Shown: positions 6,941 to 62,900 of the stretch, piece after piece
How the letters are laid out: each line of letters starts with the position of its first letter
Position numbering within the stretch: the stretch's first letter is position 1
Assembly (NCBI RefSeq): GCF_003324165.1
Contig: NW_025407878.1
Coordinates: 87,513 to 151,512, forward strand
From: Naegleria lovaniensis
Lineage: Eukaryota > Heterolobosea > Eutetramitea > Acrasida > Naegleriidae
Length of the DNA stretch: 64,000 nucleotides
Reading direction: 5' to 3'
Notes under the pieces: model-generated
Database searches by the model: none
Told to the model about the DNA's origin: nothing
What the model saw: the letters and a program-made list of their open reading frames with translations, nothing else
Translations under genes and position numbers: made by a program

Positions 6941-9060
6941 ATGAAGAGAATCTCTCAACACATTACACAACACCAACGATGGATGGTGCGTTCAAAGACA
7001 TTACATGGGATTCAAAACAACACAAAGAATGAACCAAGTCGAGTGTTGTTGATCAATAATAACCAAATACCAACGACGACTTGGAATGATCAAAGTCATT
7101 CGTTTCACACTCAATTGATTTCACTCCATCCATCGACATCATCCAATACTTCGCAATGTCCATTCCATGCGACGAAATCTGCATCGACCATGGTGTCTTC
7201 AACTAATTCAGTTTCTCTCCAAATGGATACATTGAAACCATCGGTCGATGAGAATTTGACCTCCGAAACTCTCAAACACGATCACTCTCCACAACCTCGT
7301 GTGAAATCTTTTGAAGAAATTCCTGGACCTAAAGCATGGCCTTTCATTGGTCATTTACTTGATCTTCTCAAACATAAGGGAATTCCAAATATTTATTTTT
7401 ATGAATTGTGTGAACAATATGGAGATATGGTTCGTCTTAAAATTCCAGGCGAGAATATGTTGATTGTGTCTCATCCTGTCATCATTGAAGAATTGGTGAA
7501 AAAGGAAGAACGACGTGAATATTTAAAGTCGAATCGATATTATAAGCAACAACATGATATAACGTTGGCTCCTATTGGTAAGTGAAGAAATGTGATCCTG
7601 ATCTAAGGTTTCATTGGTGCTTGTTTTAAACAATAATCATGACTATTAATATTGAACTTTATGACCATTGCTATTAATATTGACAATAATATTTTGAACG
7701 TTATGACATTTCCACATCATGAATGTCTTTTTGAAATTTCATAGAAATGACCTTCTTTGAGGATTGGCAAGAAATTAGAAATCTCTACAATGTGGCCATG
7801 AAACCTGAAAATTTAGAAAAAGTCAGTTTACCACAAATTACTGAACTCAATGGAGACTTTTTACGGACTCTTGTGAAAAAATTGAAACGAACTGACAATG
7901 ATGATGGACTCAAATATCGACTTCCGAATGCCTTTGACGTGACATCTTTATATACTTTCAAAGCAGTGGCTAAAACCTTTTTAGGTGTCAAAGTCACTGA
8001 AGAATTGGAACAACAAATGCCATGGACCATTTACGAATTTGTCGAACAAGCTGTTCGTGCCACCGATATTGCACTCCAACTAGACAACAAACCACCTCTC
8101 TATCAATACATTAAAACCAGTGAATATAAGGAAATGGAATTTTTAATGGACAAGATTTACGATGGATGTAAACTCTTAATCAAAATGTTCGAACAAAATC
8201 CAAATCCTAAAATTCCTCGATTGAAAGAATTGGTCGATCAACGAGCTGTTGGAATGGAACAAGCACATAAAAAGAGTGAAGGAGTGTTGAGTGCCTTCTT
8301 GAATGGTGGAGTAGATATTACATCACGAATTATGGTCAATCAAATGTATCGATTGGCACATCATGTGGAATATCAAGATAAATTATTTGAGGAATTGAAG
8401 GGATTGTTTGGAGAACCTACAACTGAGGAGTTTGAATCAGAAAATGGTTTGGAAATTACTTGGGAAAAGTATAAAAAGATGAAACTTGTGAAGAATTTCT
8501 TGGAAGAAACCATGCGTTTGAATTCATTCTCGTATATGACAAGTGGCAGATGGGCCGTACAGGACTTTGAATTGAATGGATATTTAATTCCAAAAGACAC
8601 TCGTATCTTTATTATGAACTATCATCCAAGTTTGAAGGATGAGTTTGTTCCACGTGCTAAAGAATTCATTGCAGAGAGACATGAAAAGGGTCATCCGTTA
8701 GCTCCAAAATCCATGTACAGCAGGTAAGTGCTGACAATTGACATTTTTGTTACAAGGAATGGATGAAATTTTCTCAATTTTTCAAATCATGATGATGAAA
8801 TGGAATACTTTAAATATATTAACAGTCTTCCATTTGGAATTGGTGCTCGTAAATGTCCAGGTAGTCGTATCGCAAGTACTGAATTACACATGTCACTCAT
8901 CAATTTGGTCAGACATTTCAGATTGACTCATGAAAATCCAGAGAAATTCCCAGAAAGCAGCCATGATCAATCCATGCTGTACATTAATTCAAAGAATCAT
9001 CCCTTGTATCTCATTCCAAGAGATCATATGAAACCAATTTTAGAAAAACATGTGAAATAA
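6941..9060 (+). CDS. Cytochrome P450, mitochondrial-clan type (copy 1)
   Basis: Exons are 6941-7577, 7745-8723 and 8826-9060 (introns 167 and 102 nt, matching phases), giving 616 residues. P450 features, in order: the proline-rich hinge EIPGPKAWPFIGHLL; an I-helix-like segment with LNGGVDITSR, resembling the GGVDTTS of animal mitochondrial P450s; the ExxR motif EETMR; the PERF-like region PRAKEFIAERH; and the haem loop FGIGARKCPG with its ligand Cys. The N-terminus is basic and rich in His/Gln/Ser, consistent with mitochondrial import and the lack of a microsomal anchor. Such enzymes hydroxylate lipophilic substrates with ferredoxin-supplied electrons. A close paralogue lies at 53899-56064. 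The substrate is unknown, and an upstream ATG at 6665 is in frame. Confidence 0.85.
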
Positions 9061-9176: not shown

Positions 9177-9659
9177 ATGGAATCACGAACTTCACAGCAT
9201 AATTTCAGCGCGCAGATGATCCGTCCTCGTGATGATCAAGATTCTGATTCCAACCGAACCGGACAAGACTTGATCCGAAAAACATTACAAGATGCTGTAG
9301 AACGCCATGCACCATTCGGATTCATTGGACTGGAAGTGTTTCATGATCCCAATGATTCCGTTCCGAACGGTTCAGTTGAAGCCTCTGAACTTGTAACAAG
9401 CCTTCCACAATATCCAATGAATGAATTTTTGAAACACAAATTACAGTATTCCATTGGATTGTTAAAGATGCTCGCAAATTGTAATCATCAGTCGTCCAGT
9501 GTGCCCGTGAGAATCTTGAACAACCATCATGTTGGCCAGGAGCAGCAGCTGACGAAGGTTTGGAAATACTTTTCGGATATTGTGATTTTCGAAAAAGTGC
9601 GAATAAAAAATCGACGATTTTTTCGCGATTTTTTTCGAGATCGAAATGAGCGACATTGA
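9177..9659 (+). CDS. Unknown gene with its 3' end replaced by transposon sequence
   Basis: The frame from the ATG at 9177 codes 160 residues, but only codons to 9578 are host sequence. From 9580 the frame reads into the transposon, giving a basic tail (KVRIKNRRFFRDFF). Bridging the insertion at its TA target restores the end ...YFSDKI followed by TAA (bases 12671-12679), so the original protein was about 136 residues. No domain is recognised; it contains GLEVFHDPNDS and a helix-prone KHKLQYSIGLLKML. The restored stop lies only 5 nt before the ATG of the next gene (12685). It may still be functional, since the insertion changes only the last two codons. Confidence 0.55.
   Translation: MESRTSQHNFSAQMIRPRDDQDSDSNRTGQDLIRKTLQDAVERHAPFGFIGLEVFHDPNDSVPNGSVEASELVTSLPQYPMNEFLKHKLQYSIGLLKMLANCNHQSSSVPVRILNNHHVGQEQQLTKVWKYFSDIVIFEKVRIKNRRFFRDFFRDRNERH
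9580..9614 (+). repeat. Left terminal inverted repeat (outer copy)
   Basis: Begins TTGTGATTTTCGAAAAAGTG and pairs with the reverse complement of 12636-12669, apart from one substitution and one single-base indel in about 34 positions. Confidence 0.88.
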
Positions 9660-9793
9660 TGCGTTGTCGTTTTGACTTGATGTTGATTAACATCGAAATC
9701 CTTCAAAATCGATTTCGATCAAACTCGAAATTTATTAAGTTTTTGTCTCATCATGCCAGATTTCCTTGCAATGATGAACAAACGATTTGATTA

Positions 9794-9828
9794 TTGTGAT
9801 TTTCGAAAAAGTGCGAATAAAAAATCGA
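9794..9828 (+). repeat. Left terminal inverted repeat (inner copy)
   Basis: Same sequence as 9580-9614 and again preceded by TA. This inner copy, with the right end, is probably the functional pair of ends for the full element. Confidence 0.85.
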
Positions 9829-9948
9829 CGATTTTTTCGCGATTTTTTTCGAGATCGAAATGAGCGACATTGATGCGTTGTCGTTTTGACTTGATGTTGA
9901 TTAACATCGAAATCCTTCAAAATCGATTTCGATCAAACTCGAAATTTA

Positions 9949-11019
9949 TTAAGTTTTTGTCTCATCATGCCAGATTTCCTTGCAATGATGAACAAACGAT
10001 TTGATTAACTTGGGTGTAACTTGATCAAACACCTGCTCCATTATCTCTTCGAGAGAGTCAACCGAATGTTCATAGTTTTTCAACTGTGTTTTCATCCATC
10101 CGAAAAGCAATTCAATGGGATTGAAGTCAGGAGAGTATGGGCTTTGCCAAAACACACTAATACCTTGGCCATTCATTATACTATGAACTTCTTTTTCCTT
10201 ATGAATGGATGCGTTGTCAAGAACTAAAATACAATCTTTTGGGATCAATTTGCTCAATGTTGTCAGAAATATATTAAATCGATCAGCATCAATTGCTTTG
10301 TTAGTTGTATCGACAAGTTCCCAGTAAACCAAACCTCCTCTCTCGTTAATGCATGCCAATAATGAAAAACGTTTTCCACTCACTCTGTGCGCACTGTTTT
10401 GACAAGTGTTGCCAATTTTGATGTGAGCCCTTGTTCTAATCAAATGGTCATAACAGAAATGCGATTCGTCAATAAAAAACATGATTCTTGTTTTGTAGGT
10501 TCGAATAGTTCGCCTGTACACAGTTCTTTGAGATTGTACTCTTGGGCTTTTTCGATATACTGATACTTTTTCACATTTCTTATATGTCCTGAACAAATAT
10601 TTTGTCGTTATTTTGGAGAGCTGAGATACGGAAATTGAAACATCAAGATAATCTTTAACTATTTGACGTACTTCTGCATAATTAACAGTATTATATTCAC
10701 TGAATATGATATCAATAAATCTTAACACAGAGAGGTGGGTTGATTTACCTGAATGTGGAGGCCTTCCGAGAGCTTTTTCTTTTTGTATTTCATTGCAATA
10801 TTTGTAAATCGTTGAAGGTGCGAAAGGTAAAATTTGTTGCAAGACCTTTGGTTTATCTCCATACTTTCCACACACCAATTTAATGAACTCAATTTGTTCT
10901 GGGGCTAATTTTTGACCTTGGATATATGGTCTTAGTTTTTGAGATATTTGGACACCTGTTTTTTGTTTGAAAACTCGTCTTTCATCGTTTGTGAATCGAT
11001 GTTGCGTTGCTTTTACCAT
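9949..11019 (-). CDS. DD34E transposase (IS630-Tc1-mariner)
   Basis: It catalyses cut-and-paste movement of the surrounding element at TA targets. The N-terminal half has helix-turn-helix-like segments (FIKLVCGKYGDKPKVLQQIL; APSTIYKYCNEIQKE) and a GRPP linker, as in Tc1-type paired-domain proteins. The catalytic triad is visible: FFIDESHF, LVLDNASIHK and SPDFNPIELLFGWMK, with 34 residues between the second Asp and the Glu. The start at 11019 (MVKATQHRF) is the first ATG, giving 356 residues. The frame is intact, so it may be active. The gene ends close to the left terminal repeat and is divergent from the element's second gene. Confidence 0.93.
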   Translation of the reverse strand: MVKATQHRFTNDERRVFKQKTGVQISQKLRPYIQGQKLAPEQIEFIKLVCGKYGDKPKVLQQILPFAPSTIYKYCNEIQKEKALGRPPHSGKSTHLSVLRFIDIIFSEYNTVNYAEVRQIVKDYLDVSISVSQLSKITTKYLFRTYKKCEKVSVYRKSPRVQSQRTVYRRTIRTYKTRIMFFIDESHFCYDHLIRTRAHIKIGNTCQNSAHRVSGKRFSLLACINERGGLVYWELVDTTNKAIDADRFNIFLTTLSKLIPKDCILVLDNASIHKEKEVHSIMNGQGISVFWQSPYSPDFNPIELLFGWMKTQLKNYEHSVDSLEEIMEQVFDQVTPKLIKSFVHHCKEIWHDETKT

Positions 11020-14328: not shown

Positions 14329-15963
14329 TCATGGAAGCATGGAAATTCCCAAATACGCATCGTGATAGTAATGAGTCATTCTCGCTTGATATAATTCATC
14401 GCTGTACTTCAATACATATCCATTGCATTTAAGTGCCTCCATCACAATTTCTGAATCTTGTTGTAATTCTTCACTTGCGTATTTCAATGAGTAACCATTG
14501 TTTTTCACTGCCTCTAACATTATTTCTCGGGAAGAACAATTATAATTGCGTCCAATAACTCCAAGACTGTTAAGTTTGACTGCTTGCAGAATAAATTCTT
14601 TGTCATTTGTAAATTCTGCTGGTACAAGTGACATAATATCCTCACATCCCATCTTGATCACATCTAATAAGAATTGTTTGTCATTTAAAAGTCCACTCTC
14701 TGAAGCGTAGAAAAAAGCCTCCTTGTTTTCATTGATTGCTTCAAAAACTATTTCTCGATCATTTTGAAAAATCTTATCAGCATAATCAAGTGCAAAGCCA
14801 TCTCGTTGAACTGCTTCCAAAACAATCTCTCGATCGCTTGTCAACTTATTTGACGCATATGCAAGAGCATAACCATCTTTTCTAACAGCTGCTAATACAA
14901 TATCTTTGTTATTTTTCAAATCATTGAGGGCGTAAACAAAGGCATGGCAATTTTGACAAGTAGCAGCTAGCACCACATCATAATCACTTTTCAACTCTGT
15001 TGAGACAAATTCCAAAGCGTTGCCATCTTTCTGAACGGCAACAAGTACAATGTCCTTGTCACGCTTTAAATCATCAGAGGCAAATTCAATAGAACAAGCA
15101 TTATTCTGAACTGCATTTCTCACAACATCACGATCATTCTTAAGCTCTTCACTTGCAAACTGAAGTAAAAATCCAAATTCTTGTACAAGTTTCAACATGA
15201 CTTCTTTGTTGGAATAATTAAACACCTTCAATCCTTCGAATTCAGGAAAAATTAATGTAACAACTTTCAACATGAAAGAAAGATCTGTGAGTAACTCAAT
15301 TGGAACCCATTGAAGTGCCTTCTTATTTTGTTTGATCGCTTCTAAAATTACGTCCTTATTTGATCTCAAACCATATGCTGGGTCTACATAAGTATAACTC
15401 AATGCCTCACCATTTTGTCTCACAGCAGCTAATACAATGTCAAGATCATTCTTGAGAGGTGGTGCTGCATAGGACAGCGCTTTTCCATTCAACTGAACTA
15501 CTTTCAACATAAACTCCTTATCATTTCGTAGCACAGTTGAAACGGAATTCATTACCTCTCCGTCATTCTTTACGGCAGTCAATATTAATTCTTTATCATT
15601 TCCAATTCTGTAATTTGGAAATCTTAATTCCATTGATCCATTGTATTGAACCACTGTCAACAGAAACTCTCGGTCTTGTTTTAACTTGGGGGATGCATAT
15701 TTCCAACCATAGCCAAACTTTTTAACGTGATTCAAAATAAATTCTTTGTCGTTCATAAACTCAACAGGAATGAAATTCTCATATTTCAATTCTCTATTCT
15801 CGAGCCATTTCTTCTTTCCTAATTGTTGCAATGAGAATTTCTTTTTCAATAATAATTCCAATCTCCGAATAATATGAATAGAATTTTGATCGTCATCATC
15901 ATGCTCGTTAAGAGTTAAAAAATCAAGTACAACCACCTTTACATTTCCATCATTAATTCTCAT
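14329..15963 (-). CDS. DUF4116 repeat protein (copy 1)
   Basis: This single-exon, 544-residue protein is built of about ten copies of a ~50-residue repeat of the form (L)xxDKEIVLxAVxxNGxALxYASxELKxD, typical of DUF4116. Examples are RDVVRNAVQNN and DREIVLEAVQRDGFALDYA. The repeats are helical and probably stack as a solenoid. DUF4116 proteins are numerous in Naegleria and some other protists; the function is unknown and protein binding is a guess. The ATG at 15963 (MRINDGNVK) is clear. A longer, diverged relative lies at 28640-30607. Confidence 0.85.
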   Translation of the reverse strand: MRINDGNVKVVVLDFLTLNEHDDDDQNSIHIIRRLELLLKKKFSLQQLGKKKWLENRELKYENFIPVEFMNDKEFILNHVKKFGYGWKYASPKLKQDREFLLTVVQYNGSMELRFPNYRIGNDKELILTAVKNDGEVMNSVSTVLRNDKEFMLKVVQLNGKALSYAAPPLKNDLDIVLAAVRQNGEALSYTYVDPAYGLRSNKDVILEAIKQNKKALQWVPIELLTDLSFMLKVVTLIFPEFEGLKVFNYSNKEVMLKLVQEFGFLLQFASEELKNDRDVVRNAVQNNACSIEFASDDLKRDKDIVLVAVQKDGNALEFVSTELKSDYDVVLAATCQNCHAFVYALNDLKNNKDIVLAAVRKDGYALAYASNKLTSDREIVLEAVQRDGFALDYADKIFQNDREIVFEAINENKEAFFYASESGLLNDKQFLLDVIKMGCEDIMSLVPAEFTNDKEFILQAVKLNSLGVIGRNYNCSSREIMLEAVKNNGYSLKYASEELQQDSEIVMEALKCNGYVLKYSDELYQARMTHYYHDAYLGISMLP

Positions 15964-17563: not shown

Positions 17564-18412
17564 ATGAGAAAACAACTCCCGGCATCTGTTGAAACTGGTA
17601 TTGTTGAAGATGCAGCAAATTTATCATCAACAAGGATCAATGATCAATCTGAAAACGATGATTTCTCTCCGACAAGTTTTGACGATAACAATGGACCATT
17701 GGCTGATGATATTATTTTTGAAATTCTTCAATTCCTTGATTCCATGTTGATCATTCAAATTTGTATGAAAATTTCAAAACAATGGAGACGGGTATCATTT
17801 CAAATTCCTCTCTCATTAGCATTCATACCAAATCACTTCAAACAACCAAAGCATGAGTCCATCAAACTTTTAGCTGATTGTGAATATGTGAAGAATTTGA
17901 CTTGTTTGAGTCTGGATACCAATCAAATTGGCAATGAAGGTGTTAAATATATTGCTGCAAGTGAATACTTGAATAATTTGACTTATGTGAATCTGGAATG
18001 GAATAGAATTAGCAAAGAAGGTGCTAAATATTTTGTCGCAAGTGAATGTTTGAAGAATTTGACGTCTTTGAATTTGTATTACAATGAAATTGGCAATGAA
18101 GGTGCTAAATATATTTCTGAAAGTGAGTGCTTGAAGAATTTGACTTATTTGAATCTAGATAGAAATCAAATTGGCAATGAAGGTGCTAAATATATTTCTG
18201 AAAGTGAATACTTGAAGATTTTGACTTCTTTGAGTCTGGACGACAATGAAATTGGCAATGAAGGTGCTAAATTTCTTGCTGCAAGTGAATGCTTGAAGAA
18301 TTTGACCTTTTTGAATCTGGATAGAAATCAAATTGACAATGAAGGTGTCAAATATATTGTTGAAAGTCAATGGTTGAAGAATTTGAGTTTGTTGTCTTTG
18401 GAAGATGATTAG
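17564..18412 (+). CDS. F-box/leucine-rich repeat protein
   Basis: This is 282 residues. An F-box-like motif (LADDIIFEILQFLDSMLIIQ, then ICMKISKQWRRVSF) is followed by about six to seven 27-residue LRRs of the ribonuclease-inhibitor style (KNLTxLxLDxNxIGNEGAKYIxxSExL). It is likely an SCF adaptor with an LRR substrate platform. The repeats are so alike in DNA that recent tandem duplication is evident. It is small for the family and ends abruptly after the last repeat (LSLEDD), so loss of further repeats is possible. Confidence 0.8.
   Translation: MRKQLPASVETGIVEDAANLSSTRINDQSENDDFSPTSFDDNNGPLADDIIFEILQFLDSMLIIQICMKISKQWRRVSFQIPLSLAFIPNHFKQPKHESIKLLADCEYVKNLTCLSLDTNQIGNEGVKYIAASEYLNNLTYVNLEWNRISKEGAKYFVASECLKNLTSLNLYYNEIGNEGAKYISESECLKNLTYLNLDRNQIGNEGAKYISESEYLKILTSLSLDDNEIGNEGAKFLAASECLKNLTFLNLDRNQIDNEGVKYIVESQWLKNLSLLSLEDD
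17884..18409 (+). repeat. 81-nt tandem LRR-coding repeats
   Basis: Six to seven in-frame copies of an 81-bp unit (27 residues) within the F-box/LRR gene share long identical stretches such as GGCAATGAAGGTGCTAAATA. The similarity suggests recent expansion and possible copy-number variation. Confidence 0.8.
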
Positions 18413-24048: not shown

Positions 24049-25881
24049 TTATTGAACGGATTGTGAGAGAACGACAAGATGAGATTGTAACATCCTCAAT
24101 GCTTGATCCAACAAGACTCTATCGTTGGCATCTTTCATCCAATCACTCAAAACAAATCTTAAATTTGCATTATCCTTATGTTGACAAATGTTGACAATTT
24201 CTGACAAGGCATTTTCCAATTTTCGATGTTTTAAATAAAATTCAGCACGGGCAAGTGCTGCATTGACAGATTCGCCTTGTACCAAACCATGCTCCTCGAC
24301 AACAAAGACTGAAGCAAGTTTTGAAGTCACATATCCAAATAATCCAGCATGAGAAGGTGTCAATGAGGAGGCTAACGCCTGCTTCTTAACAGTTAAAAAT
24401 CTATCCCGTAACTCCTCGAATGAGGTGGCTCCTTCAAGAATGACCTGTTCAGGAATGAGATCGATAGCAGTGGTCACAAGATCATCACCTGCAGCGAGTG
24501 CTTTCAACTTTTCAATTTCTTTTTTACATGATTGCTTCTTATTGAGAGTAGCGTCTTGGAATGAAATGATAGCTGTTGTATACTGTTGTAATTTAAGGCT
24601 ATCATTGAAATAATCAATAGATTCAGCGAAATGTTTTTCCAATTGTTTCAATTTGGCCTCTGTCTCTCTGACTTGTAAATCTTTCTTTTGTGCGTGAGCC
24701 GAATAGAGAGAGGAAATATCGTGAGCTTGTTCCTTGAGGGATTGTTCCATCTCAGATGCAAGTCTTAACTTCTCAGCATTCAACTCTTGGGAAAGTCTCT
24801 CTCTCAGCAATTGTAATTCTGTTTGCTTTTCTGAGAGTCTGGCTGAGAGTTTTTCCATTTCGAGCTTGGTTTGCTCCTCACCAATTGCTCGTACTCGATT
24901 CAATTTAGTTTCATATTCATGCTCCAAAGTACGTAAGAGTTGATCTTTGGTGGCAAGCTGCTTTTCAATTTGTTGAATACGAACAATCAATAAATCTCGA
25001 TCTTCAACCGAGAGGGGGCCTTCTTTTGAGGCCAATTTAGAGCTATCCACCTGCACTGATGAATGAGTCATTGCATTCTCAATGGCTGCTGTGAGCGCAA
25101 GCTTTTCCGAGTTGAGCTGCTCGACGTCCTTCTTGATGACTCGTTGTGAGTTTTCGAGAGTGCTCATTCGCTCGGAAATGGATGATTTCTCACGATGAAG
25201 AGCCTCTAGTTGTGAAGAAATGGTTTGAAGTCTCTGTTGAGTCTTGTGTAACTCGGTTTGTAGAGCATTCTCGAGTGCTGATCTCTCCTCATTGGCCTTG
25301 CTATTAAACTCTTGAATCTTTTCTTCGTTGCCCGAGTTGTTCTCGTTGTTGTCAGTGTTGTCCATGTTGGCACTCTGTAAATCGCTCATGGCTTGTTTTT
25401 GATAGGCCTTCAACTCTGAAATTTCCTTCTCAAGCTTACGGGCCTTCTCAATATCATCCCTCAAGTACATGACGACTGCAAGAGAACCTGCTGAAATGAC
25501 AGAAACCGAAAGCAACAAGTTGAAGATGAAGGAAGATGATTTCTTTGTGTTGCTACCGACTCCAGAAGGAGGTTTTAATTGATTTTCCTTGTTGTATTTG
25601 ATGGATTCCATGTTGCTTGTGCTCGACTGTGTTGTTGTTGCCTTTGTTGTTGTTGAATTGGATGATGGTGAAGTGCCCGATGAAGAGGTGGTCGTATTAT
25701 TGTTGGGAGTAGCAGCAGTATGGGTGAAACAGGAAGTAGAGAACATCATTCCTTGTTGTGGTTGTTGCTGGAAAGAAGGATTTTTGGCCGATGATGATGC
25801 TTTGGTTGTGAGAAGGTTTCTTCCTGATGTTGTGGCCACCAGCGAGGAAAAAACCTTGCGAGAGGCGATGGCTCTTTTCAT
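24049..25881 (-). CDS. MIC60: Mitofilin / MIC60, MICOS core subunit
   Basis: MIC60 anchors cristae junctions in the mitochondrial inner membrane. The 610-residue protein has a basic, Ser/Thr-rich presequence (MKRAIASRKVFSSLV), a low-complexity stretch, one transmembrane helix near residues 115-138 (FIFNLLLSVSVISAGSLAVV), a long coiled coil (about 145-430), and the conserved C-terminal mitofilin domain with LASSLTPSHAGLFGYVTSKL, GESVNAALARAEFYLKHRKL and a final HLVVLSQSVQ. Length and order match the family. It is a single exon. It is divergent from the ankyrin gene with only 177 bp between start codons, so the two probably share a promoter. Confidence 0.92.
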   Translation of the reverse strand: MKRAIASRKVFSSLVATTSGRNLLTTKASSSAKNPSFQQQPQQGMMFSTSCFTHTAATPNNNTTTSSSGTSPSSNSTTTKATTTQSSTSNMESIKYNKENQLKPPSGVGSNTKKSSSFIFNLLLSVSVISAGSLAVVMYLRDDIEKARKLEKEISELKAYQKQAMSDLQSANMDNTDNNENNSGNEEKIQEFNSKANEERSALENALQTELHKTQQRLQTISSQLEALHREKSSISERMSTLENSQRVIKKDVEQLNSEKLALTAAIENAMTHSSVQVDSSKLASKEGPLSVEDRDLLIVRIQQIEKQLATKDQLLRTLEHEYETKLNRVRAIGEEQTKLEMEKLSARLSEKQTELQLLRERLSQELNAEKLRLASEMEQSLKEQAHDISSLYSAHAQKKDLQVRETEAKLKQLEKHFAESIDYFNDSLKLQQYTTAIISFQDATLNKKQSCKKEIEKLKALAAGDDLVTTAIDLIPEQVILEGATSFEELRDRFLTVKKQALASSLTPSHAGLFGYVTSKLASVFVVEEHGLVQGESVNAALARAEFYLKHRKLENALSEIVNICQHKDNANLRFVLSDWMKDANDRVLLDQALRMLQSHLVVLSQSVQ

Positions 25882-26058: not shown

Positions 26059-28474
26059 ATGTTTAGTTTGGTAAAGGCAATTCAAGAAGGAAATGTGGAA
26101 GAAGCAAAGAAACAGCTTTCAAAAGATTCTTTGAATTTGGAGGAAACAGTAGTAGGTATTGGATGGTTGGTAGATTGAGGAAAAATTATTTTCATCTCTC
26201 TATTCTATTCCGATATCGGAATCAACAGTATGTAAGTACTGATCTCGGTTTTGTATGATGCATTTGAATGGATTTAATGATTTTAATGGATCCAAAAGAA
26301 TGTACGTTAATGGATTTAAGGAATGAGTTGTAACATGATTAACGTGCAACACTAGCCAGTACGTTTTGAATATTCGTCAGCGTTTGTCATTCGAATCGCC
26401 TTATTAGAAAGTAAGTGATTTGGATTCTTTACAACCTTTGATTGATTTAAATTTGGAATATTTAGTGTGTAAGTTTGGGACTGGGTGGAGTTAATGTTCT
26501 CAAAAATGATGTAATATTAGGTTGTAAGTTCATGATATTGATTGAACATTGACATCAATTGAAACTTGTTTAAGGGAGTATGTATTTATGTTGTCCAGAC
26601 AATTTTGCTTGAAATCAAACTACAGAGTGTAAGTGAAACGGACTTGAGGTTTGGAGAACTCTAAATTTCGATTGGAAATAGAGTGTAAGTTTAGACTATG
26701 AGGGCATATTGGAGCTCACTTTGAGAAAGTGGGTAGGTGACATGTTCATATTGTCATTTTCAGCTGCAACGTTCATTTAGGAGGTTTGTGTTATCGTATG
26801 ATGTTCTCAGTTCGCTGAACGTGCACAATCCTGCAGGGAGTAAGTTTTTACATGAGAAATTTTAAGAAAAATTAACACAGATGTTTAGTTTGTAAGTAGG
26901 TCACTATTTATTTCTGTTCACCCTCTCCAGAGTGTGAGTATTTGATATTTTGCAAGACTCAATTCATTTAACTTGGTACAGGATGTATGTATATTGGTTC
27001 GCTAGCATTGATTTTAGTAACTAGTTTTGAGACAACAGGAGGTTAGTTTTATTTGATGATCATCATCCCTTGAACTGTCACAATTAGCCTGTAAGTGAAA
27101 TTTTCATTATTACACGAGATTTCATCACAGAGTTATGCATAGAATGTATGTACAATCTCTGACACTTAGTATTACAAATTACTAATTCGTATTTTAACAG
27201 GTGGTATGTATGGCCAGATTTCAAAATGTATCACTTTCATCAGATTGTAAGTATGTTGTAGAGCAAAAATTTCATACAATCTACGTTCTGTCATAAGGGA
27301 GTAAGTGATCCTGATGGATGTAGTTTATTCATTGAATGCAATGGATAGGGAGTACGTATCTATAGTTTTCTTATGAAAAAGAACAATCACCACGTTCAGT
27401 GGGTATGTTCATTGAAAACATTCGAGGTGAAATCATCATTTTCAAAACCAGCATGTAGGTTTTTTGATTATTATTTAGAAAAAGTACAATCGTGTGAGCA
27501 GCCTGTAAGTGGATTTTCAATGATTCATGAGCGTCATCTAAGGATCTTAAAAGGGAGTACGTAATTTCTAATTGTGAAGGTCACCACCCTCACAACACGC
27601 TTGTCAGAACGATTATGTGAGTATGATTAAGCGATAGAATTTGTTAAAAACTCGAACAAACGCATTTATAAGGATGTAAGTCTTGGAAGAGACCTTTGTT
27701 GAACTCTATTATATTTTAGTATGGAGTAAGTAAGGGTTATATTTCTTAGACTCACCACTGTCAACCAGGTCGTAAGTACCAAGATGTAAAGAATCAAGCA
27801 CTCTACAGTATGCTCTAAGAATGTAAGTTCCCATCTCAATCATGATGACAGTTGAATTCTGCTTCAAAGACTGTAAGTGGATACAATATTCAACTCCCAT
27901 TGTTCCATTTTCGATACGTAGATTGTAAGTACCATCTCATTATTGTATACTTGTGATACAAACAATATTTCAAGGTGGTAGGTGTTGTGTGATATTTTGT
28001 CATTGTTCTTGACATGGCGGTACAGGTAGTAGGTTTTCTGAGCGTTGTGCTATAATTTTATGAACTTTGGTGGAATTCTGTAGTATGTAAGTGTTCTTCA
28101 ATAATCTGACATGTAAATGACATTTTCCACTGTTGAAGACTCCATTGTATGCAGCATGTAATTTTGGATTGTACGAAGTGGTAAAGCTTTTAATTGAGAA
28201 AGGAGCGCATGTCAACCACATCAACCACGGTTATGGTGAAGATTGGGGTCCTCTTCATGTTGCTATTTACCACAAACACAAGGACGTGATTGCTTTGTTG
28301 GTGCAAAATAATGCTGATCTTAATTACAAGGAAAAGGTAAGAGTTGGAAATGAGAGAGATTGAACATGTTCTTTTATTCACATACTGCAGTACGGAAGAA
28401 CACCATTGGATCTTGCCAAGCAAGTGAATGCTTCAGAAGAAATCATTCAGTGGCTTAACGGATCAACTCAGTAA
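26059..28474 (+). CDS. Ankyrin-repeat protein assembled from 36 codon-sized microexons
   Basis: Exon 1 is 26059-26151 (31 codons, first ankyrin helix pair: LVKAIQEGNVEEAKKQL). Thirty-six microexons follow (26229-28086), then 28139-28336 (66 codons) and 28391-28474 (27 codons plus TAA), for 163 residues. The downstream exons hold clear ankyrin repeats: TPLYAACNFGLYEVVKLLI, then GPLHVAIYHKHKDVIALLV, then TPLDLAKQ. The microexons encode 39 residues beginning YNPKCVGSSW and ending GVNTIVVY, which would form a long loop between repeats 1 and 2. All microexons are phase 0 and none is a stop. Ankyrin proteins bind partner proteins; the target is unknown. The last intron (28337-28390, 54 nt) is ordinary. 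The gene is divergent from MIC60. The splice model is read from sequence only. Confidence 0.85.
26152..28138 (+). other. Array of 37 mini-introns and 36 codon-sized microexons
   Basis: Microexon start positions: 26229, 26299, 26356, 26408, 26466, 26521, 26575, 26626, 26682, 26730, 26781, 26837, 26889, 26931, 26982, 27039, 27088, 27143, 27201, 27244, 27298, 27349, 27400, 27452, 27502, 27554, 27608 (9 nt), 27673, 27720 (6 nt), 27769, 27820, 27870, 27922, 27975, 28026, 28084; all others are 3 nt. Each is preceded by CAG (14), TAG (13) or AAG (9), never GAG; the last intron ends AAG. Each is followed by GTNNGT (19 of 36 GTAAGT). Introns total 1,870 nt, 39 to 77 nt each, and share no sequence beyond the splice sites. 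All six glycine codons are GGA and all three serines AGT. The exact 3-nt spacing repeated 34 times cannot be chance. Confidence 0.88.
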
Positions 28475-28639: not shown

Positions 28640-30607
28640 TTACAGCCACCTGTCAAACTCATCCAAAGTACTACTCTTTTTGTTAAAAATCCACTTATGA
28701 ACCGTGTTCAACATTGGAAGTGGTTTAGAAATTGTGAAATGAGAGGGAATGTCACATCCAAAATACTCTGCCTCTAAGCGCGCTTGTTTCCACTGTTCAA
28801 AACGTGAGAGAGCATTATCAATATGACTCTGTAAAAAATTAGTGCAAAACACTCCATGCTTGACACATTCATTGATAAAATTTTCATCTTGTAATAAAAT
28901 TGTATCTATGTAATCAACATTTTCTCTATTTGAAATGAGGGCAGTCAACGCAACGTCCTTATCGTTTCTGTACAGAGCACGAGGAAAATGCTTATTTTTG
29001 AAAATATCCCCTCTCACTTTTAACCATTCCATTATAAATTCCTTGTCTCGAAAGATCGATTTAAATTCATGATTCAACATTAAAGTGTCCAACGCACGGT
29101 TTTTGACATCTTGTTTCAAAATATTCAACAGGAAATGCTTGTTTTCCATCAAAAACTCGATAGAAGCAAATTCAATACTTTGTGGCTCTTGTAGAAATGC
29201 CTTTTCAATAATTTGTTCATCTGCTTTCAAATTGTCAGAAGCATATTCCAAAAGAAAACCATTTTCCGATATCACATCCATCATGTAACTCTTACACGAA
29301 AGAACATTCTGTGAAGCAAATCGAATACACTCCAAATCATAATCCAAAGCTAAATCCACAATTTTAGTATCATCTCTCAACTCCTCAGATGCAAATTTAA
29401 GAGCATTTCCATTTTGAGAAATAGCATCCATGACCACCTCTCGATTCGATTTCAATTCATTTGACATGAATTCCAAACAAAGTCCATTTTTTCTCACGAT
29501 TTCTAAAGCCAACGAAGGATCTTGTCGAAATCGTGCATTGGCAAATACAAGTCCTCGTGGAAGGGATTGCAACACGTGAGGAAGTGAATCTTTCAATCGA
29601 TCAGAAGCAAATTGTAAACATGAACCACATCCACGTTTGAGTGCTTCCATCACCCAATGAGTGTCATCTTTCAAATTGGAAGAGGCAAATTCGAGAGCCA
29701 GCGATTCACCATTTGAAATTAATTTTTTAACCATTCCATCCCTCATGTCTGGATCTGATTTGAGTTTGGATGGAACAATTTTCCAAATTGAAACTCCTTG
29801 ATTCAAGTCAATGGCTTTCAAGAAAAAATTCTTATCATGTTGTAACTCGTGTGGAATAAAATGTGGATCAATGGGTCGACAAATCCAATGAGGAAATTTC
29901 ATTTCTTGAAGTGAAATATTGGCTCGAGAAGCAATCTCAATAAAATTCTCTACCACCGCACGATCATTGAGAAATTCAATTGGAATCATGGCACTGCTTG
30001 ATGGTGTGGATGTTGGTAATTTTCGAATGTGTTCCTCTCGTCGTGAAAACCATTTTACAAATCCACGAATTTGATTTTGAAATTTGAGATTGAGTTTTTT
30101 GTCTAGTTGTGAAAGAGGATGGAGTGAAGGATTAATTTTGTCAAAATCGTGTAAAATTAATTGAACTGGAATTCGATGACTCGTGTCTATGGTCGTGTTG
30201 TTTGGTGTCATGTTGGATGGATAACACAAGTTGGTGCGATTTGAAAAGTTGGTTAGAGAGCTTGCTTGATTATGAATGACATGTGTATTCGTTAGCGTTG
30301 GATTTGTATATGAAATGCCACTTGTCATTTGGGGTCTATCAAATAAATTCATACGAAGAATGGGATTTATAATCTTTTCTCCCTCTCTCAATAATTCTTC
30401 CAATGACTCCACTCGGAATTCATAATTCAAAGATTGAAACGGAATGACTTGTCCGGATCGGAACGGATGAATTTGTTCCTGTTCTTGATGTCTCAAACGT
30501 TGCTCAATTTCAAAAGCAAAATCACTGATAGGAGGGTTAACATAGGTGCCACTGGTGTTGTGGTTGTGGTTGTGAGAAGAAAGTGGCGTCGAATGAAATC
30601 GATGCAT
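28640..30607 (-). CDS. DUF4116 repeat protein (copy 2)
   Basis: This is a single exon of 655 residues from the ATG at 30607. The first ~210 residues are low-complexity and unrecognised. From about residue 215 to 570 there are tandem DUF4116-type helical repeats (SNREVVMDAISQNGNALKFA; DDTKIVDLALDYDLECIRFA), more diverged than those of 14329-15963. The function is unknown. It is convergent with the ankyrin gene across 165 bp. Cys-rich variants (GCGSCLQFASDRLKD) occur within the repeats. Confidence 0.8.
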   Translation of the reverse strand: MHRFHSTPLSSHNHNHNTSGTYVNPPISDFAFEIEQRLRHQEQEQIHPFRSGQVIPFQSLNYEFRVESLEELLREGEKIINPILRMNLFDRPQMTSGISYTNPTLTNTHVIHNQASSLTNFSNRTNLCYPSNMTPNNTTIDTSHRIPVQLILHDFDKINPSLHPLSQLDKKLNLKFQNQIRGFVKWFSRREEHIRKLPTSTPSSSAMIPIEFLNDRAVVENFIEIASRANISLQEMKFPHWICRPIDPHFIPHELQHDKNFFLKAIDLNQGVSIWKIVPSKLKSDPDMRDGMVKKLISNGESLALEFASSNLKDDTHWVMEALKRGCGSCLQFASDRLKDSLPHVLQSLPRGLVFANARFRQDPSLALEIVRKNGLCLEFMSNELKSNREVVMDAISQNGNALKFASEELRDDTKIVDLALDYDLECIRFASQNVLSCKSYMMDVISENGFLLEYASDNLKADEQIIEKAFLQEPQSIEFASIEFLMENKHFLLNILKQDVKNRALDTLMLNHEFKSIFRDKEFIMEWLKVRGDIFKNKHFPRALYRNDKDVALTALISNRENVDYIDTILLQDENFINECVKHGVFCTNFLQSHIDNALSRFEQWKQARLEAEYFGCDIPSHFTISKPLPMLNTVHKWIFNKKSSTLDEFDRWL

Positions 30608-56914: not shown

Positions 56915-59900
56915 ATGATGAGATTTGAAACTCATTCCATGGCTGTGGTTGTGGCCATCGTGATCATCATCCTGACCACACATGTCCAAGCTTGTACGAA
57001 TTCTACTGAATGCTCAGCTCAATACGTTTGCCGACAGAATCAATGTGTTCCCGTTTGTTTTGATATTCCTGCCGTGATGACCTCTGTGGTCTGTGGTGGC
57101 ACTGGACACGGGCGGTGCATGGGTCCTAATAACTGTACTTGCGACGCTAATCGTTATGGCCCTCAATGCCAATGTGTACGAGTAGGAGATGGTAGTGGCA
57201 ACACTGGCACAGGATCTGTTGGAGGAGTCGACGCTTGCCTCAATACCACGATCGAATTAAGGTGCAGTGGACATGGAGCACTTCGTATGGATGGTTTAAC
57301 TTGCGAATGCCAGAGTGGTTTCTTTGGTGAACGGTGTACTAGCCAAAGCAACACGATTCCATGTAGTGGTCCAAATTATGTGATGAGTACGGATGGCCGT
57401 TGTATTTGTGCCATGGGATATTCGGGCATTAATTGCTCTCAATCTGCACCTCCGATCATAACGACACCTCATTGTATGAAATATCGATCTGAACTCATCT
57501 TGCCCGAATGTGCATCGATTGTAAATTATGAATTCATGAACACTGCATTAATTGGGAATAATGAAGTGCATTATAATGAAACACAGTACGAGGCCCTGCT
57601 GAATGAAAAGATGCAAGCTCTTGCTGAAAAAGCTCGTCAACAAATTCAACACGACATGCGAACATTTGAAACTTGTGCAACCACATCTGAAAATTGTAAA
57701 CGTGCTTTACTTACCTTTTCGTGCATGAGCGTATATCCATCGTGTCGATATATCGGTAATGGAACGCCTGTGCCTGTCAAACTTTGCAAAGAATCTTGCA
57801 TGTCATTATTTGGTCTCATGCCCTCTAATAATGGTACTGCTGGTTCGGCTACAAGTGTTGCTGGCAGCAACAATGATCCCAATGACATGGTTGGAAGAAT
57901 ATGTCAAAATTTAACAAGCTCGAATGCTAATGAGTCTTGTTTTATGATTAATCCCAACAACAATAACAACTCAAACCCCATCTTCTGCGGACCAAATTCG
58001 ATCATCATGCATAATGGAAGCTGTATGTGCGAAGAGGGCTACACTGGCACCAATTGCTCACTCTATAACCCAAGACCTCAATGTATTCAATACAAGTTCG
58101 ACTATTTGAATACCAAATGTACCTCACATGCCAGATATTTGTATTTGAATACGTTATTCGGTAGCACTGCCACGAATAGACAACAATTTGAGGAACGAAT
58201 TCGAGAGGGATTTTCTAGTTTGTCACGCTCTGTGGACATGATGTTCGAAAATGCTAAACAAATGAGCAGTGATTGCAAAACCGATGCATGTCACTTCGAA
58301 ATGTTGAAATTTATCTGCGCCTACATTTATCCTGCTTGTCTTCATACCACCAACGACACCTCCACCGTTGTTTCTGCACGTATGTGTAAGGGCTCATGCC
58401 TTCAAACATTAACCCCTCGCTTAAATGAGACTCAGTACCGGCCCCTATGCGATCCGCTATCAAATTCTGATTGTATTATGTATCCTGATCCTGTGCCTCA
58501 AAATGGTTGTGGGCTCCATGGTCAACTTCAACAGAATGGAATATGCCAATGTCAAGACCAATACTTTGGAAATGACTGCTCCATTTATATCCCAAGACCT
58601 CAATGTATCCGCTATCCAACCGAGCGCCTCCATCCAAAATGTTATCCTTATGTGACCTATGATTATTTGAATACCATGTTCCTTACAAACGCTACATCCA
58701 ATCCACAAAGCTTTGATCAAAATTTGATGATTGCCTTTTCCAACATGTCACTGTATGTTGAACACATGAGTTCCAAGTTATTGCCTTTGTGTGAAGCTCT
58801 TGAGGAATCATGTAAGAGAAGATTGGAGAGATTTATATGTTTGTTTGTCTATCCTGCATGCAAAAGAACGAGTGCAACCTCTTCAACAACTGATCAGACA
58901 CTTGTTCCTGCACGCATGTGCAAATCTTCATGTATGAATACCCTTTTACCATTTGCCAAACCAGACCTATTGCCTCTGTGCAACGATTTGAGAGAAGATA
59001 TTTGCATTGCCATTCCTCAAGACAATGTCAACTCGTATCGATGCGGAGGTTTACTACCCACAGATGAAAAAGTTTGCAATCGAAATGGTATTTGTTTGGC
59101 CGGTTTTTGCAATTGCAGCTCTGGATATTCAGGTGCTTTGTGTGATCGTTATGTTTGCACGAACAATTGTAATGGAAAAGGTCAATGCGTTGGACCCAAT
59201 CGATGCGAATGCACATCAGGCTTTAGTGGTTCTGACTGCTCTCAATTTGCTTTACCACAAGCATGCGTCTCCATTCCAAGCACTGCGATTCCGTTCTGTA
59301 AAAACTATGGAGTGAATTACAACGTGTTAAATTTGGACTTCTCTGTGGGAGCAAAAAACAATTCTCATGCTATTCAAGTTTTCATGGATGCTGTGAGTGA
59401 AGCAGATCGACAAGCTCAAACGAACTACAATGAATTTGTTGCTGCCAAGAATTTATGTAACTCGTCAGTACCATCCTGTGATATTGCTCCCCTAAAGAAA
59501 TATTTCTGTTTACAGCAATTCAAGTTGTGTACAAACAGCAATCCTAGGATGTCACTATGTCGATCAGTTTGCCAACAAATTTCTGCCTCGAGCAATATTA
59601 CCTTAAATTGCGATCTGCTGCCCACTGAAGGTTGTAACTTTGGTAGTTATTTGCCAACTAGTGTCACTTGTTTTGGCTTGAGAAGAGACAATCCTCAAGT
59701 ATGCTTTGGAAAAGGCCAATGCATTGCTCAAGACCAATGCCAATGCTTTACAGGTTTTGGTGGTGATAGGTGTGACAAATATATTTGTCACTCCAAATTA
59801 TCGAACGATCCATCTGTATGCTCAGGAAATGGTACTTGTCTATTCAGTGATTATTGTCAATGTCGAAGAGGTTACACTGGTAGATTGTGTGATATTCCAA

Positions 59901-62900
59901 CTTGTAATGGCCTCACAGATGTGATGGGCGGCTGTTCATGGAGGGGCAAGTGTGAAACAATAGATCGATGTGTTTGTGATTCTCCTTCATTGGAGCCATC
60001 ATCTTTTTGCTCAAGATGTAAAAAAGGGTATGAGGGACCTAACTGTGAATATCCTATATGCTTCAAAGTTCAGTCCAATTATGGAAGTGTTTGTTCGGGA
60101 CATGGTCGATGCACAAGCCCAAACAATTGCGTTTGTGACAACGGTTACACGGGAAATGCATGCCAATCCTTCACTTGTTATGGAACAGATGCCAGAAATT
60201 CAACTGTTTGTGGAGGTCATGGTCGGTGTGTAGCTCCAGACACCTGTGTCTGTGAACCAAGGTGGAACGATGGAAGAAATTGTACATCCTGTAGTCCTGC
60301 TTTCAATGGACCTCAATGCGAGAATCAATTTTGTTCCAAGGCTATCACTTGTAACAATCGAGGAGAGTGCATAAATAACGAGTGCACATGCTCTGGTAAT
60401 TTTGGTGGCAGGTTTTGTGAGAAATGTGCTCCTGGTTTTGTAGGAGAAAATTGTGACATTTTGTGTACTTCTGCATTGAATTGTTCTTCGAATGGCGTCT
60501 GCTCTAGGAATGGGTCTTGTGAATGTTATCAACGATTTACTGGTGCCAAGTGTGATACATGCTCAGGTGCATGGTCTGGTTCTGGCTGCATGTTTAATTT
60601 ACCTTCTGTGTTGACTTTCAGTGCGAATGGAGATAGACTTGTTGGAACCTACTACTCCTCAATCAGAAAACGAATAGAGTGTAAGAGTTTAATCACCGAT
60701 GATAGTCTTGATAAGATTGGTGGTGACGATGCTGACTGCAATTTACTTTCAGATGGTACCTTTGAAATTGTACTTGGTGCCTTTGCAACAGTGACCACTG
60801 GAGATGTTATTTCGTTTTATCAGGATCCATCTAAAGGTGACTCTTCTCCAACTGTGGACGTTCCTGTTGCTTCAGGTTCATTTATTCCAGCACAACCTAC
60901 AGCCATTCTCTTTGTTGAAAAGAATGTTGTGTCGTCATGTGATCGAGTAGTATTGGATGCTTCAGCCTCGGCCACATTGGACGGTAGAAAATTGCAATAT
61001 TCTTGGTCTGCGTCAACAGCTCCCTCGAGCGATATGCTTTATTTCCTCAATGAACGTTTCTCTCAATGGAAATACTCGATTATGACCTTTGATGCTTCAC
61101 TTCTTGAAACAGGCACCTATACAGTAGAAGTAACAGTTCAAAGTTCATTCAATACATTCTCCAAACAATCTATTTCGTTTGATGTCATTGGAAATGCTGT
61201 GCCAACAATTTCTCTGAAAGAAGGATTGAGTCCAACAGTCAATATTGGTTCTCTCGCGTTAATCAACGCTCACATTCGATTCCCACTGTGCTACAATGGC
61301 AATCCAAGATTAACCAGATGGAATTACACCATGGATGAGACCAAATCTTCAGCTGCCAATGTTGACATTAAATTCAGAGATGGAATTTTAGTATTTGGAC
61401 CAAGTTATACCGTACTTCCCATTGAGGGAGATTATTATTTTTCTGTGACAGCTCAAGCAGATAGAGCTCAACCTGTTTCATTACAATTTAAGGTAACAGC
61501 TGTTGCAAAACCATTGCTTGTGAAATTTGACATCTTTGACGTCACTCAATCCACTGACGAAGTGTTATCGTTCAATGTTTTGACACTAGATCCAAGTGCC
61601 ACCAGTGATACCTCCACACTCAACATTTCATGCTTTGATTTAGTCAACGCAGTAGATTGTGCGAACCTTCCCTCACCTATACAGACGCCATTCTCGAGCA
61701 AGCTTTTGGAAGGCAAGTACAAATTCACAGCTACCTACAGTAAAGGTGTAAGAAGTAATAGCGCCTCCTTAACTGTTACTGTGGTGAATATGGCCAGAGA
61801 CGCAATGATCCGAGTGTCCATAGTGGCCATGTCCGTTGGCATGTCGAATCAAGTGGCTGACATGACTGCTGTTGATCCTTCGAAAGATTTGGTTCTTCTA
61901 TCCAGGTTCATTGATCGTGTCTCACGGCCTACTTATTTGTGGGAAAGTGATGATTTGTCATTGGATGATATCGAGTGCACTCTGAGCTATTTGAAACTTC
62001 CAAAAACTCTCTTAACAGGTACTTTCACCATTCGATTGACTGTGACCGATGGTACAACACGAACAGGTAGTACTTCCCTAACCTTCACTATGAATCAACC
62101 ACCCTCAAAGGGAGTGTTTGAAATTAGTCCCAACAGTGGTGTAGCTCTCAAAACCCTTTTCAACATTGGTTGTTCGAATGGCTTTAGTGACCCTCACTTA
62201 CCTCTCACCTATCAATTCTTTTATTATGATCAGTGGATTGGAGATTGGAAACAACTCAATGATCGCTCGGAGAGAAAATCCATTACATCCCCATTACCTG
62301 TGGGTAGTGGAAGTGGAAATACGTTGAGGATTAAGGCCGTTGTTTATGATTCGAAATTAGCATCAACATCGGTAGAAACGAGTGTTGTGGTAACAGCTCC
62401 CTCAGCCGAAGAAGCTCGATCCATTCTTCTCAATACCACCACCCAAGGAACCATCTCGCAATCAACTGCTACTGCTGCTTTGGATCTTCTCAAGACGATT
62501 CAAACCAATGATTCGAACATTATTCGACAAATGAAAGATGTTGGATCTCAATATATCAATGCTTATTTTGAAAATGTAGAAGAACAGGTGGCTATTTCTG
62601 GAGAAACGAGTGACAGTGCCTCAGCTAAAATAGATGTTATTAACACAGCAAGTGGTAGTTCAGCTTACCTTCACGACTCGACTTCCTCGACTTTGATTTC
62701 CAAACTTTTGAACACTACATCACTAATTTCATCCTCTGGAACCATCAATACTGAATCAAGCACTTTGGATATTGCCAAACAAGCCGCAGATTCACTCTTT
62801 ACTCGTGTAAATCAAGCTGGAATGACCTCAAGAAAAGCAAACGCTTTCAGCAAAACCGACATTGACAATTTGAAACAAATCTACCACTCATTGTTAATAT

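Follow-up and report, generated by a model that had tools for sequence, protein, structure and literature searches.

Among the closest described counterparts of the locus considered here are the micro-exon genes (MEGs) of schistosomes, which, in the part of the account available, have 10-20 short exons, mostly of 15 bp and with a range given as 6-81 or 3-81 bp, separated by introns of 0.1-5 kb (PMC10526429). Shorter exons still are found in plants, where the accessible text lists 1-nt exons in APC11 and VPS55 and a rice gene with a pair of microexons of 5 and 12 nt (PMC8831610), and in the mouse, where Ncam has a 3-nt exon (PMC8042270); and predicted gene models with many three-nucleotide exons have been described from the fungus Phlebia radiata (PMC6540522). 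In the recursive (ratchet) splicing of Drosophila and mammals, paired acceptor and donor sites are used stepwise, and recursive splicing of Ubx also passes through two microexons (PMC6110457).

A window of 64,000 nt of Naegleria lovaniensis DNA, the whole stretch that was analysed, contains at 26059-28474 what we read from the sequence as a spliceosomal ankyrin gene in which 36 microexons are usually included, the introns being removed one after another to give a protein of 163 residues (probability about 0.78). The array resembles the schistosome MEGs, whose short exons for the most part have lengths divisible by three, in its long succession of very small exons and in the scope for in-frame skipping; unlike the MEGs with their 10-20 exons, at least as the consulted part of the source describes them (PMC10526429), it has 36 exons, 34 of them of one codon, with introns of 39-77 nt, and would lie in a loop of an ankyrin protein. 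Judged by a preponderance of 15-bp exons and by introns of 0.1-5 kb, it falls outside the MEGs, and kinship with them was neither found nor expected. Its exons of 3, 6 or 9 nt are within microexon size (≤15-30 nt), and the plant and animal microexons of 1-15 nt show that inclusion of exons as small as 1-3 nt is within the capacity of the spliceosome, but in the excerpts at hand those are isolated or paired, unlike the run of 36 here. The gene models predicted for Phlebia radiata have one-codon exons as in the array, but the available text reports no consecutive run (PMC6540522). The array likewise recalls recursive splicing in its paired sites, but ratchet points are described, in the portion of the source available, as zero-nucleotide AG|GT sites in very long introns that leave no residue in the mRNA (PMC13149111), whereas the array has a 3-nt spacer and a total length of 2 kb; a HAG placed directly before a GTNNGT donor occurs nowhere in it.

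The kind of feature, spliceosomal microexons, is known; what appears to be new is the form, in which introns interrupt the sequence after almost every codon. No run of one-codon exons was known to the original prediction, and none was found in the literature searched, which took in a minority of subscription journals, isolated one-codon exons being known, as in mouse Ncam; a search for Naegleria together with microexon found no paper. To our knowledge, if spliced as predicted, the array would have the densest intron packing known, with 37 introns per 117 coding bases. It would then be a natural test bed for how a spliceosome copes with exons that leave no room for simultaneous binding at both ends, for the order of intron removal and for a possible processivity of splicing. 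The occupation of 37 of 40 successive codon boundaries, all in phase 0, is of relevance to intron gain. The array also exemplifies a class of exon missed by usual annotation, because read aligners and gene finders, including the one trained here, disallow 3-nt exons. Lastly, as skipping is harmless to the frame, measurement of isoforms could separate neutral growth from useful diversity in the loop.

Predicted structure of the microexon gene

Spliced on the forward strand as set out in Table 1, 26059-28474 gives a coding sequence of 492 nt and 163 residues, the length originally predicted, with the terminal stop as its sole stop. The array section comprises 39 codons (117 coding bases), and the joined microexons specify the peptide YNPKCVGSSWEGFSDEPNVIGGWHPGNDYDYGVNTIVVY. 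At microexon 10 an overlapping GAG-AAA-GTGGGT at 26726 matches a looser pattern but lacks the HAG acceptor.

A simple gene finder, for which the remainder of the window served as training set, was run at six intron penalties and made no call of the array gene at any of them, because an extra intron costs more than one codon repays. As candidates for an antisense gene, several open reading frames (ORFs) of 40-74 aa lie on the reverse strand within the array; all are short.

Table 1. Coordinates of the predicted microexon gene in the window
Feature	Position	Strand	Remarks
Exon 1	26059..26151	+	93 nt, 31 codons (MFSLVKAIQEGNVEEAKKQLSKDSLNLEETV), phase 0 end, then GTAGGT
Array	26152..28138	+	37 introns (39-77 nt) and 36 microexons between them
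Microexon 1	26229..26231	+	TAT (Y)
Microexon 2	26299..26301	+	AAT (N)
Microexon 3	26356..26358	+	CCA (P)
Microexon 4	26408..26410	+	AAA (K)
Microexon 5	26466..26468	+	TGT (C)
Microexon 6	26521..26523	+	GTT (V)
Microexon 7	26575..26577	+	GGA (G)
Microexon 8	26626..26628	+	AGT (S)
Microexon 9	26682..26684	+	AGT (S)
Microexon 10	26730..26732	+	TGG (W)
Microexon 11	26781..26783	+	GAG (E)
Microexon 12	26837..26839	+	GGA (G)
Microexon 13	26889..26891	+	TTT (F)
Microexon 14	26931..26933	+	AGT (S)
Microexon 15	26982..26984	+	GAT (D)
Microexon 16	27039..27041	+	GAG (E)
Microexon 17	27088..27090	+	CCT (P)
Microexon 18	27143..27145	+	AAT (N)
Microexon 19	27201..27203	+	GTG (V)
Microexon 20	27244..27246	+	ATT (I)
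Microexon 21	27298..27300	+	GGA (G)
Microexon 22	27349..27351	+	GGA (G)
Microexon 23	27400..27402	+	TGG (W)
Microexon 24	27452..27454	+	CAT (H)
Microexon 25	27502..27504	+	CCT (P)
Microexon 26	27554..27556	+	GGA (G)
Microexon 27	27608..27616	+	9 nt, AACGATTAT (NDY)
Microexon 28	27673..27675	+	GAT (D)
Microexon 29	27720..27725	+	6 nt, TATGGA (YG)
Microexon 30	27769..27771	+	GTC (V)
Microexon 31	27820..27822	+	AAT (N)
Microexon 32	27870..27872	+	ACT (T)
Microexon 33	27922..27924	+	ATT (I)
Microexon 34	27975..27977	+	GTG (V)
Microexon 35	28026..28028	+	GTA (V)
Microexon 36	28084..28086	+	TAT (Y); profile position 3 of the Ank repeat continued in the next exon
Exon 38 (post-array)	28139..28336	+	198 nt, ankyrin repeats (TPLYAACNFGLYEVVKLLIEKGA...)
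Last intron	28337..28390	+	54 nt, GTAAGA...CAG, ordinary kind
Last exon	28391..28474	+	ankyrin C-terminal part and stop codon

The paired splice sites of the array

Between 26152 and 28138 the pattern HAG-NNN-GTNNGT occurs 34 times, where its frequency in the remainder of the window predicts 0.11; dinucleotide shuffling of the same segment, repeated 2,000 times, gave a mean of 0.73 and a maximum of 5. Over the whole window the forward strand has 36 matches, of which 34 fall within 26226-28081, and the reverse strand has 5. When the spacer of HAG-N{n}-GTNNGT was varied from 0 to 24 within the array, only n=3 gave 34 matches, every other value giving 0-3. The series of 3-nt sites has two gaps, and these are filled by the 9-nt and the 6-nt microexon. 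An unguided chain search of both strands of the window, with exon length limited to 1-12 nt and intron length to 35-90 nt, recovered a chain of 37 introns at the array and chains of at most 2 on the reverse strand or on the forward strand with the array masked; for the first intron it chose a donor at 26166, an out-of-frame alternative to the in-frame donor at 26152. One of the two isolated forward-strand matches outside the array, at 8718-8729, stands at the end of an ordinary exon, next to one of the confident introns, and seems to be due to chance.

The 37 introns have a mean length of 50.5 nt and a median of 49 nt. The original prediction had given 34 sites with a 3-nt exon plus one exon each of 6 and 9 nt, introns averaging about 50 nt, a pattern far in excess of chance and no GAG acceptor, and all of this was borne out on recounting.

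The step of the array is regular, mostly 49-58 nt, as would be expected of a decayed tandem repeat, a minisatellite of about 52 nt, or of an assembly artefact, that retained AG-NNN-GTNNGT by chance. Such an account is scarcely credible, since neutral decay would not spare splice signals alone. The intron bodies are no more alike than shuffled ones: the mean pair score was 11.86 against 11.90 in shuffles, adjacent pairs scored 12.36 against 12.03 (sd 0.38), and the best pair 24 against 24.1. From this lack of similarity it follows both that only the signals are kept and that there is no recognisable repeat array. Tandem Repeats Finder reported nothing at the array, and on these two grounds a tandem-repeat origin that is still visible was rejected.

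Evidence for selection on the splice signals

All 37 introns have the end signals of U2-type spliceosomal introns (GTNNGT and HAG). At the donors +5 G and +6 T are invariant and +3 is A in 33; the acceptors are CAG in 14 cases, TAG in 13 and AAG in 10. For comparison, the gene finder at stricter settings predicted 21 models outside the array with 38 introns in all, of which 22 with usual donors, HAG acceptors and models of more than 200 aa were kept and 16 doubtful ones dropped; a slightly wider donor list gave 23 introns. Looser settings over-called introns. The array introns are shorter than these 22 (median 49 versus 96.5, P 1e-8). GTAAGT donors account for 19 of the 37 array introns and 17 of the 22 others (P 0.058), a comparison that is unfair because the filter by which the 22 were chosen favours GTAAGT. 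In the array the exon ends in T before 20 of 37 donors, whereas 12 of the 22 other introns have G there, and this preponderance of T argues against the view that the triplets merely extend the donor consensus.

In the 10 nt before the acceptors AG occurs 5 times, against about 15 in shuffles (P 0.003; 0 of 1,000 in a second run), and in the 20 nt before them 15 times against 34, while GA, taken as a control for composition, is undepleted at 16 and 38, respectively. The 22 other introns likewise have 1 AG in these 10 nt where 7.8 are expected. Per site, AG stands at 0.135 before array acceptors and at 0.27-0.48 before arbitrary HAG sites taken from the antisense strand within the array or from other parts of the window; GA too is lower at the array (0.43 versus 0.47-0.78), so that the difference in AG between array and window is partly one of composition, yet the AG:GA ratio, 0.31 in the 10 nt before array acceptors, is about half the 0.58-0.62 found at three sets of arbitrary HAG sites. 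Such avoidance of AG is that of acceptors kept clear of decoys. For the branch point, k-mer counts gave no clear motif, and the last 26 nt of the introns showed no peak at any position. The end signals and AG avoidance together support the view that the array consists of U2-type spliceosomal introns whose signals behave as selected splice sites.

The sites might instead be used unevenly, so that subsets of microexons, whether through regulation or noise, differ between molecules or life stages and the loop varies in length and sequence. The weaker AAG acceptors are indeed frequent in the array (10/37 versus 2/22 in the other introns), phase 0 at every site keeps all subsets in frame, and the full and skipped forms are both ankyrin-like. 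In-frame skipping is, however, automatic with one-codon exons and is no proof of regulation, and AG avoidance together with the invariant donors suggests selection for accurate use of each site. We consider such partial inclusion quite unlikely.

Probable coding content of the microexons

All exon lengths in the array are multiples of three, and both flanks are in phase 0. When the microexons are joined, frame 0 is free of stops over its 39 codons while the other frames have 1 and 7, in agreement with the prediction of sense codons in frame with the flanking exons; absence of stops on its own is weak evidence (P 0.06-0.16). Retention of an intron with an open frame would be possible for 4 of the 37, the other 33 breaking or shifting the frame.

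Codon usage had also been predicted to be host-like, and this stands in moderated form. The host-codon log-odds of the microexons, 8.6 bits, exceed those of intronic triplets (P 0.0003; 0.002 for stop-free draws) and are in line with the 10.4 plus or minus 4.4 of real codons. Smoothed nulls built from intron-derived and from AG-NNN-GT-derived triplets gave P 7.5e-5 and 0.001, respectively (stop-free, 0.001 and 0.009), and a null with the array's own base use at each position gave the weaker P 0.045, or 0.22 with stops excluded. A version of the test with 311 control triplets was set aside as biased, unseen triplets inflating the score. Glycine is encoded by GGA in all six microexon cases, as had been noted, whereas 17 long ORFs of the window use GGA for 46% of their 419 glycines; as a point against the coding reading, Leu, Ala, Arg, Gln and Met are absent from the 39 codons. 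Taken together, codon content moderately supports translation of the triplets. That the gene is transcribed, spliced and translated is our inference.

The ankyrin domain and the probable position of the insert

By Pfam the spliced protein is an ankyrin-repeat protein (Ank 63.4 bits, cut-off 21.1; Ank_2 64.8, cut-off 27.3), with the Ank matches falling downstream of the insert, and the PDB matches of the downstream exons are to many ankyrin and designed-ankyrin chains. The prediction of two flanking ankyrin-coding exons is firm for the downstream one only, because exon 1 alone has no Pfam match up to E 10. In the form from which the array is skipped, ankyrin matches reach into exon 1 (Ank_KRIT1 over residues 4-110; Ankyrin-1 from residue 8), which may accordingly be called weakly ankyrin-like. 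The 39-residue insert matched no Pfam family. Several ankyrin models fit the protein slightly better when the insert is left out, which counts against its inclusion: scores without and with it are 61.9 and 57.1 bits for Ank_4 and 28.2 and 22.4 for Ank_KRIT1, with the opposite trend for Ank_2 (62.1 and 64.8). The Tyr encoded by the last microexon is the residue that precedes TPL in the Ank repeat profile. Because the matches of the skipped form extend into exon 1, the insert most likely occupies the loop that joins a degenerate initial repeat to repeat 2.

Skipping of the array keeps the frame and leaves an uninterrupted ankyrin protein, and the insert has no known homologue; these points would also suit a single long intron at 26152-28138 (1,987 nt) from which the triplets are lost, the paired sites being regulatory, decoys or a recursive device absent from the mRNA. 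This explanation seems to us improbable. The intron would be 8.5 times as long as the longest of the 22 confident introns (234 nt), and its outer sites score below the array average (donor 26152, 4.86 versus a mean of 6.24; acceptor 28138, 1.67 versus 2.44). Ordinary recursive sites, to judge from the available portion of the source, have nothing between AG and GT (PMC13149111), and resplicing that removes the triplets needs GT at the start of each, which is present in only 5 of 36. Finally, the exons of 3, 6 and 9 nt, the absence of stops and the host-like codons would all be left unexplained.

Proposed splicing mechanism and possible origins of the array

If, as we prefer, the usual transcript includes all the microexons, the resulting 163 residues would carry the 39-residue insert in the loop between repeats 1 and 2. 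A 3-nt exon covers the same bases as the exonic part of the U1 site, and simultaneous occupation of its acceptor and donor would hardly be possible; recognition would then take place across each intron (about 50 nt), and the introns would be excised singly, in succession. Steric exclusion is likewise assumed for zero-nucleotide recursive sites, in the part of the source available (PMC6110457). Were removal to run, for example, 5' to 3', each step would add a codon to the growing upstream exon and expose the next donor, in a ratchet resembling recursive splicing but with a codon left behind at each step.

The array could persist since any donor may be joined to any later acceptor in frame and a skipped exon would cost one residue; it would be tolerated because every donor-acceptor combination keeps the frame. 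With all donors and acceptors in phase 0, 2^36 isoforms are formally possible. The array might even be a splicing-driven generator of loops, a splicing counterpart to variable binding loops, in which any subset of microexons is joined, regulated or at random, so that one ankyrin scaffold could carry as many as 2^36 different loops, all in frame, and even full inclusion would mean codon-by-codon reading by a ratcheting spliceosome; this we regard as unlikely.

Phase 0 at all 37 introns has a probability of 1.7e-27 under independent random placement in 118 positions, and random insertion is thereby excluded. One possible origin is a unit of codon plus intron, copied repeatedly and since diverged beyond recognition; another is the successive birth, inside an intron, of microexons of the smallest length that keeps the frame. 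The 6-nt and 9-nt exons would then mark spots of intron loss or of introns never formed. Two pattern searches of viral_contigs for relatives gave 17 and 8 matches, and one of genome_contigs gave 57; no match was confirmed as a relative, in searches whose reach was limited to close relatives and to non-eukaryote genomes.

Genomic context

The window has a GC content of 37.4%, and about 79% of it outside the locus lies in predicted exons, doubtful ones included; for N. lovaniensis, the consulted part of the genome report gives a GC content of 37%, a coding fraction of 77% and introns with a median of 80 bp (PMC6125883). No RNA families or tRNAs were found in the window. A Mitofilin-like gene (24049-25881, reverse strand, E 2.5e-31) is divergent from the microexon gene and 177 bp from it, and a gene with DUF4116 repeats (28640-30607, reverse strand, E 7.8e-50) is placed tail to tail with it. 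A second gene with DUF4116 repeats is located at 14329-15963 (reverse strand, E 5.7e-127); a literature search for Naegleria and DUF4116 found no paper.

Repeats occur elsewhere in the window. At 9578-10007 there is a perfect tandem duplication (2 x 214 bp, 100% identity) across the ends of two facing ORFs, and at 17880-18386, inside the ORF 17564-18412, 81-bp tandem repeats encode leucine-rich repeats. A single intronless ORF of 2,217 aa at 56915-63568 (forward strand) has EGF-like and REJ matches, with weaker ones to Fz and PKD, and its predicted product has a large surface-protein-like architecture.
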